From positions 1 through 27,073 of IMG/VR virus record IMGVR_UViG_3300009008_000202: a DNA stretch of 27,073 nt; one strand, 5' to 3'. The position numbers were made by a program, and so were the translations under genes. The DNA comes from a virus. Under the pieces are notes generated by a model, which had not been told where the DNA came from, ran no database searches, and saw only the letters and a list, made by a program, of their open reading frames with translations. Below, one piece after another: positions 164-5,189 of this stretch; position 1 is the stretch's first letter, and each line of letters opens with the position of its first letter.

Positions 164-244
164 GAGGGTGGTGAGAATTGAACTCACATCTGCGATTCAA
201 CTGGGAGATACCCCAACCACACGCATCGAAAACCTTTCACCCCC
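164..244 (-). ncRNA. tmRNA-like mini RNA (tRNA-like domain only)
   Basis: On the minus strand an 81-base segment folds as follows. The acceptor stem GGGGGTG pairs with CACCCTC (7 bp, one G-U). A 12-base D-loop-like segment without a stem contains GG then TTTTCGATG. A short stem TGCG/CGCA is capped by the hairpin TTGGG/CCCAG. A perfect T-arm (GTGAG/CTCAC) carries the loop TTCAATT. Acceptor, stemless D-loop with GG..TTCGA, a P2-like helix in place of an anticodon arm, and a T-arm are the hallmarks of the tRNA-like domain of tmRNA. A normal tRNA cloverleaf cannot be drawn: no 7-base anticodon loop fits. No tag reading frame or pseudoknot region fits inside it. The full CCA is not encoded (CAC follows the acceptor). 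It could be a reduced tmRNA, a tRNA-mimic, or a decayed relic. Confidence 0.45.
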
Positions 245-384
245 AATATCATATTCCCCACTTGGAGAAAATGATACCCAATAGCCATAGGACTTGTACA
301 GTTTTTAACGAGCAACTTGTAGCCTCGTAATGTTGTGCAATAACCTCGAATAAAATTCTGGATAACTCCATCCACTTACTCTGT

Positions 385-411
385 TATAATGTGGTCAGCA
401 ATCACTTGCTG
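385..411 (+). promoter_or_regulatory. Rightward -10 box with adjoining inverted repeat
   Basis: A perfect TATAAT lies at 385-390 on the plus strand. The inverted repeat CAGCAA-tcac-TTGCTG (396-411) covers the predicted start of transcription. No good -35 box is seen at 16-18 bases. The repeat could be an operator or a 5' hairpin. It sits in the noncoding gap between the leftward genes at 497 and 108, upstream of a 23-codon plus-strand reading frame. Confidence 0.3.
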
Positions 412-465
412 GATTGCCTATGGCTCTTTATGGGTAATTTTATGGACACCATTACAGGAGAGAGA

Positions 466-5003: not shown

Positions 5004-5189
5004 TTATAACCCTTTCATATTGAATTTATAGAAATTATCTGTTAATATCCCATTTATAACTTTAGATTTGAGAATATACTCATATCCATTATAAAAAAAA
5101 TAATTTTTAGTACCACTTGCATCTACTTTATAATCCATTAGATTAATTTTCTCTAATGTGTTGAAAAATTCATTTTCTGTTATTTTCAT
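5004..5189 (-). CDS. Hypothetical 61-aa protein, first gene of the microprotein operon
   Basis: The start at 5189 is chosen because AAAGGAAAC precedes this ATG; eight more codons upstream lack a ribosome site. The protein (MKITENEFFNTLEKINLMDY...KNYFFYNGYEYIL) looks alpha/beta. It is the first gene after the leftward promoter at 5223-5250, 33 bases from its -10 box, and so heads the run down to about 3081. Function unknown. Confidence 0.6.
   Translation of the reverse strand: MKITENEFFNTLEKINLMDYKVDASGTKNYFFYNGYEYILKSKVINGILTDNFYKFNMKGL

Follow-up and report, generated by a model that had tools for sequence, protein, structure and literature searches.

Positions 159–244 of this viral DNA raise the question of whether a phage can carry a tmRNA that has lost its message and, if so, what such an RNA would do. 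The window analyzed here is a linear viral record of 27,073 bases. It encodes tailed-phage proteins (the large terminase TerL, portal, major head protein, and tape measure protein), which places the element in a phage genome. The first-pass annotation had described 164–244 as a tmRNA tRNA-like domain without its message part. All of the parts that it named (7-bp acceptor stem, stemless D-loop, P2 with its own hairpin, and T-arm) are present on the minus strand; the element stands, and its limits become 159–244 once the discriminator A and a CAA tail are included (Table 1). In the register that fits a tmRNA, with one bulged C, it runs from 244 to 163, followed by A at 162 and the tail at 161–159. 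Because this tail is CAA, CCA would need to be added after transcription.

Table 1. Parts of the window element, in window coordinates
Feature	Position	Strand	Basis
Putative message-less tmRNA (tRNA-like domain only)	159–244	minus	83-nt body (162–244) plus CAA; RF00023 and R2 matches
Acceptor stem, 5′ strand, GGGGGUG	238–244	minus	RF00023 alignment; GGGGxUG in 75/75 aligned sequences
D-loop without D-stem, AAAGGUUUUCGA	226–237	minus	RF00023 alignment; GG and UUCGA like tmRNA
P2 stem, 5′ strand, UGCG	222–225	minus	RF00023 alignment; pair 1 is U-A, C-G in most relatives
Inner hairpin UGGGG-UAUC-UCCCA, replacing the message part	202–215	minus	assigned from pairing
P2 stem, 3′ strand, CGCA	191–194	minus	RF00023 alignment
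T-arm GUGAG-UUCAAUU-CUCAC	171–187	minus	RF00023 alignment; T-stem pairs covary among relatives
Acceptor stem, 3′ strand, CACCCUCC, including a bulged additional C	163–170	minus	bulge gives third pair G3-U70
Discriminator A73	162	minus	followed by CAA at 161–159

The Rfam tmRNA model (RF00023) aligned with the element end to end (model positions 1–374) while skipping 316 message positions, with a score of 36.2 bits (E 4.6e-13 for 461 bases searched; below the gathering score of 47). This was the only clear match within the 461 bases. R2, a covariance model trained on 47 relatives but not on the window, gave 54.7 bits (E 9.5e-12, 63 kb searched), and in the same search canonical tRNAs reached at most 28 bits and permuted tmRNAs at most 38 bits. 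The element has the traits of a tmRNA tRNA-like domain: a stemless D-loop with GG and UUCGA, a P2 that opens with tandem G-A/A-G (P2 region, GAUGCG/CGCAGA), and a T-arm. With the 316 model positions absent, it has neither a tag reading frame with a resume codon nor pseudoknots. The 5′ acceptor strand precedes the T-arm and the 3′ acceptor strand, which is not the order of the permuted, two-piece tmRNAs (RF04321); permuted tmRNAs were found in three viral contigs (L013, L015, and L016; RF04321, 54–92 bits). Single-strand folding of the element was unremarkable (z −0.93), and the case therefore rests on homology, not on fold energy.

Several other assignments were rejected. An ordinary or degenerate tRNA was ruled out: ARAGORN reported neither a tRNA nor a tmRNA in the window, a full Rfam scan gave no match at or above the gathering score, RF00005 reached only E 8.7e-4 at its best in the record, and the element has no D-stem and no anticodon arm. 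A full or permuted tmRNA with its remainder nearby was ruled out by the lack of a second tmRNA match anywhere else in the window record. An attachment-site fragment of the host ssrA gene was ruled out because the element has both its 5′ and its 3′ half, connected through a paired P2; descent from host ssrA in the distant past may nonetheless lie behind it. A blast of the region against phages returned nothing useful. With covariance models, relatives, and covariation all supporting the original reading, and with no tRNA or full tmRNA model fitting better, we consider it highly likely that the window element is a message-less tmRNA. For the family to which it belongs, that identity is close to certain.

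The relatives were collected by pattern scans of viral contigs. The first pattern, which linked UUCGAY with a T-arm and acceptor close by (20–50 bases in between), identified 27 further viral contigs with a 67–84-nt tmRNA lacking a message (45–79 bits with RF00023), 25 of them above the RF00023 gathering score of 47. A second pattern gave at least 120 matches. A further covariance model, R1, separated these, with message-less tmRNAs at 52 bits or more (except one at a contig end, at 47.8) and tRNAs and other tmRNAs at 45 bits or less. Together, the viral-contig scans yielded at least 75 message-less tmRNA loci with 74 distinct sequences of 59–86 nt. Their surroundings fall into 41 clusters by nucleotide similarity and hence represent at least 41 unrelated phage contexts; all of these family counts are lower bounds. 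CCA is encoded in 34 of the 75 aligned loci. About one-third of 50 carrier records hold other tRNA genes; in the rest, many of the records being fragments, few or no other tRNA-like matches accompany the element. As a separate observation, one viral sequence (G008:C1:13066-13191; L012:1501-1626) has, within a phage tRNA cluster, a tmRNA of 126 nt whose middle part is strongly shortened (RF00023, 41.3 bits), possibly an intermediate form.

We examined covariation in an alignment of the 75 loci (74 distinct) fitted to the structure (A4). Of its cells, 98.6% are paired, and 10 of 17 pairs are changed on both sides. Double-change cells number 292, compared with 78 after shuffling and at most 47 with slid partners; the covariation value is 0.616, compared with 0.138 (shuffled) and at most 0.115 (slid). 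The answer was unchanged when 47 sequences, the window not among them, were aligned with MAFFT without constraint (94.0% paired; covariation 0.575 vs. 0.134). The first P2 pair is CG in 52 sequences, UA in 17, UG in 2, and another combination in 3. Because the scan patterns fixed UUCGA and some letters of the T-loop and of the 3′ acceptor strand, invariance at those letters is uninformative; no such requirement applied to the 5′ acceptor strand, the D-loop GG (present in 75/75), P2, the T-stem pairs, or acceptor pair 5. At the level of sequence comparison, compensatory changes in the relatives maintain the acceptor, T-arm, stemless D-loop (GG and UUCGA), and P2.

At the third acceptor pair, G3-U70 is the mark for alanine. 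This pair is constant among the relatives. Since the second pattern had itself forced U at position 70, we ran a separate scan that required A, C, or G there; its 18 loci included no message-less tmRNA, the best reached 36 bits, and those examined were canonical tRNAs or unrelated sequence. The window copy is divergent in this respect: an extra C in the 3′ acceptor strand, seen in this sequence only (1/75), blurs the alanine mark. A scan for other bulged acceptor forms found none. The earlier proposal of a G-U at the third pair holds in the register with the C bulged out, which keeps both G3-U70 and A73, but an unbulged register shifts the G-U to pair 2, and in the fold of lowest energy it is the U, not the C, that is bulged. 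Alanine charging of the window copy may therefore be weak or lost.

We scanned 257 Gb of bacterial genomes (84,980 species; contigs of at least 3 kb) with a pattern that fits 32 of the 75 members. The scan returned 10 loci, all of another type at 24–38 bits, and no message-less tmRNA, and a bacterial origin was rejected on this basis. As prophages would have shown up in such a scan, the result suggests that the carriers are lytic phages. None of the 50 carrier records has an SmpB gene, so that host SmpB would serve. Among records sharing the window’s TerL or tape measure protein, RF00023 gave no match beyond one confined to a T-arm (G014). In three terminase relatives (G012, G014, and G015), the flanks align next to the homologous site and the element is absent there; it is a patchily present gene in its phage group.

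Copies also occur in cultured phages. An unconstrained blast located them in the Streptomyces phages LuckySocke (OR725497, 17977–18057), GiJojo, Alone3, pSt2308, BRock, Tomas, Naboo, and Riptide, where they sit among tRNA genes and score 44–74 bits with R2 (pSt2308 being part of the R2 training set). In these orthologues, the 5′ acceptor strand drifts (GGGGCUG, GGGUCUG, GGGUUUG) with the opposite strand changed to match. Even UUCGAC varies among them; G3-U70 and A73 do not. Where examined, the copies carry no RNA-gene annotation, and in GiJojo a hypothetical protein is annotated on top. Because carriers among the cultured Streptomyces phages can be grown on laboratory strains, direct testing is possible. 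Many of the longer members of the family (A4; L350, L351, and L329) share an inner P2 module resembling GAAAGCC-GCAC-GCGGAAC, which is nearly constant in the Streptomyces phages and may bind something; other members have a plain hairpin. Another cultured phage, Pseudomonas phage SM1 (KU245542.1, L328), has an unannotated, permuted-looking tmRNA at about 54050–54300, with the 3′ half first and then the 5′ half with tag-like codons.

The kind of RNA described here is already known from one phage and is nearly unstudied; its wide occurrence in phages is shown here. Mycobacterium phage DS6A was classed as “TLD only” (Hudson et al. 2014, PMC4131195). The same paper notes that tmRNA is strongly inhibited by a similar molecule whether or not it can be charged, possibly because SmpB is titrated (PMC4131195). 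According to the account given by Nawrocki et al. (2025, PMC11915505), who cite Mao et al. (2009, RNA Biol 6:355), the DS6A form inhibits the endogenous tmRNA when expressed in E. coli. Going by its description, DS6A resembles our family in encoding the tRNA-like domain of tmRNA and little or nothing else; in contrast, the window copy has a bulged acceptor, and the set assembled here spans at least 41 phage contexts and two types of P2 hairpin. The jakobid mitochondria invoked in the first-pass annotation remain valid as a further case, together with plastid forms, but the nearest precedent is DS6A. Mitochondrial and plastid tmRNAs (RF02544) have likewise lost the tag reading frame. However, they are organellar, the mitochondrial ones are usually permuted, and their SmpB is nuclear-encoded in the same cell lineage. 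Mitochondrial tmRNAs without a message have been retained alongside an SmpB targeted to that organelle, and a role in coping with incomplete mRNAs has been proposed for them (PMC11915505, PMC4131195); the message-less plastid cases number two, of about 65 bp (PMC11915505). With standard tmRNA (RF00023), the family shares the G3-U70 acceptor, the stemless D-loop with GG and UUCGAC, a P2 starting GAC or GGAC, and the T-arm. Phages are also documented to carry full and two-piece tmRNAs (PMC9004378). Unlike these and standard tmRNA, the message-less form lacks pseudoknots, the resume codon, and any tag reading frame, and it measures 59–86 nt vs. about 350 in standard tmRNA. Permuted tmRNA (RF04321) has the same tRNA-like domain, whereas the window element is in normal order, 5′ half before 3′ half.

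A 2025 census lists nine standard-order sequences without a reading frame, from all sources together, among 97,179 tmRNAs (PMC11915505). We found no report of a wide message-less family in phages in open-access papers, subscription papers and preprints lying mostly outside this coverage. One phage case, DS6A, was on record in the papers found, and there are now at least 74 distinct sequences in at least 41 phage contexts. ARAGORN is blank on the window copy, and none of the copies examined in cultured phages is annotated as an RNA gene. The number of members and contexts, together with the strictly kept alanine mark, would turn a curiosity into a recurrent phage strategy toward ribosome rescue, and it raises the question of whether phages gain from blocking trans-translation or from a tagless rescue of ribosomes.

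We somewhat favor the view that the window element, once charged with alanine, competes against host tmRNA for stalled ribosomes and SmpB and so serves as a decoy directed against trans-translation; put more generally, the message-less RNA probably jams or short-circuits host ribosome rescue. The RNA would be a tmRNA tRNA-like domain from which the message has been removed and whose P2 is closed by a small hairpin. RNase P would cut it out, the host would add CCA, and AlaRS would charge it with alanine via G3-U70 and A73, after which host SmpB and EF-Tu would bind the charged RNA. In this way it would vie with host tmRNA both for SmpB and for access to the A site wherever a ribosome has stalled on a broken mRNA. 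Having no resume codon, it would supply neither tag nor stop codon, leaving trans-translation blocked or aborted untagged. A decoy of this sort would suit phages that break up mRNA, or phages whose own proteins would be at risk of tagging and degradation. SmpB titration by the window copy would require no charging. The initial suggestion that the RNA occupies SmpB or AlaRS agrees with the one published case, phage DS6A, and among the explanations considered this mechanism seems the best supported. Against it for the window copy stand the subthreshold RF00023 score, the unique bulged C (possibly a sign of decay), and the absence of the element from the closest relatives. It may also be an incomplete story, since the published inhibitor works uncharged and pure SmpB titration would need less than a strict G3-U70.

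That tmRNA inhibition needs no charging, yet G3-U70 is constant, hints at a role in which alanine matters, and it is mainly for this reason that we keep a rival that we regard as unlikely: the charged RNA, with host SmpB, would take over the nascent chain on stalled ribosomes, and other factors would see to release and recycling, so that the phage could clear ribosomes caught on cleaved mRNA at no cost in tags. The strictly kept G3-U70 and A73 point to a need for alanine charging, and the message-less mitochondrial tmRNAs offer a parallel; however, the sole experimental result for such a phage molecule is tmRNA inhibition, and release of the peptide has no known route when the template offers no stop codon. 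The peculiarities of the window copy bear on another proposal, improbable in our judgment, that this copy descends from a working message-less tmRNA and is now decaying. Its acceptor insertion is absent from the 74 others, its P2 is short, it encodes no CCA, and it is patchy among relatives, but the other conserved parts are intact, including the pairing-preserving U-A in P2 and a 5-bp T-stem, and an encoded CCA is missing in about half of the family anyway. We find it very improbable that the RNA is a bait for RNA-cutting host defenses that recognize tmRNA or tRNA ends and that it soaks up their nuclease. CoCoNuT proteins, which have SmpB-like domains predicted to bind tmRNA (PMC11090510), would be candidates, and the carriers are phages with no match in the bacterial genomes scanned; nevertheless, G3-U70 in every copy is not obviously needed for such a role. 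That the RNA is a chance fold, or an ordinary tRNA in degenerate form, is scarcely credible: the unexceptional folding energy would suit the former, but R2, trained on other phages, recovers the element at E 9.5e-12, and carriers score 22–31 bits as tRNA vs. 45–79 as tmRNA. Returning to competition with host tmRNA, we tentatively raise a broader possibility, that the family is a widespread phage weapon or tool that needs its alanine charge, enters stalled ribosomes with host SmpB, and takes the nascent chain, whether for tagless rescue or as a dead-end block; many lytic phages would then reprogram, and not merely titrate, trans-translation.

Two further structures were observed in this phage group. 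In one terminase relative (G014:C1, near 5104–5140, minus strand; L174, about 1490–1535), a short acceptor and T-arm minihelix without D or anticodon arms (GGTATAA-ATGGTTATTAA-GGGGGTTCGATTCCCCC-TTATACC) lies downstream of TerL; its strand matches that of the window element. In the window itself, positions 262–445 (minus strand), directly upstream of the message-less tmRNA, form a structured inverted repeat (fold z −2.73). It had no convincing Rfam match, and it is partly conserved in G012, G014, and G015 (L356, L358, and L357). Its closing stems seem to change together (GCCC/GGGC and ACCC/GGGT), and we regard it as a candidate for an unknown non-coding RNA.
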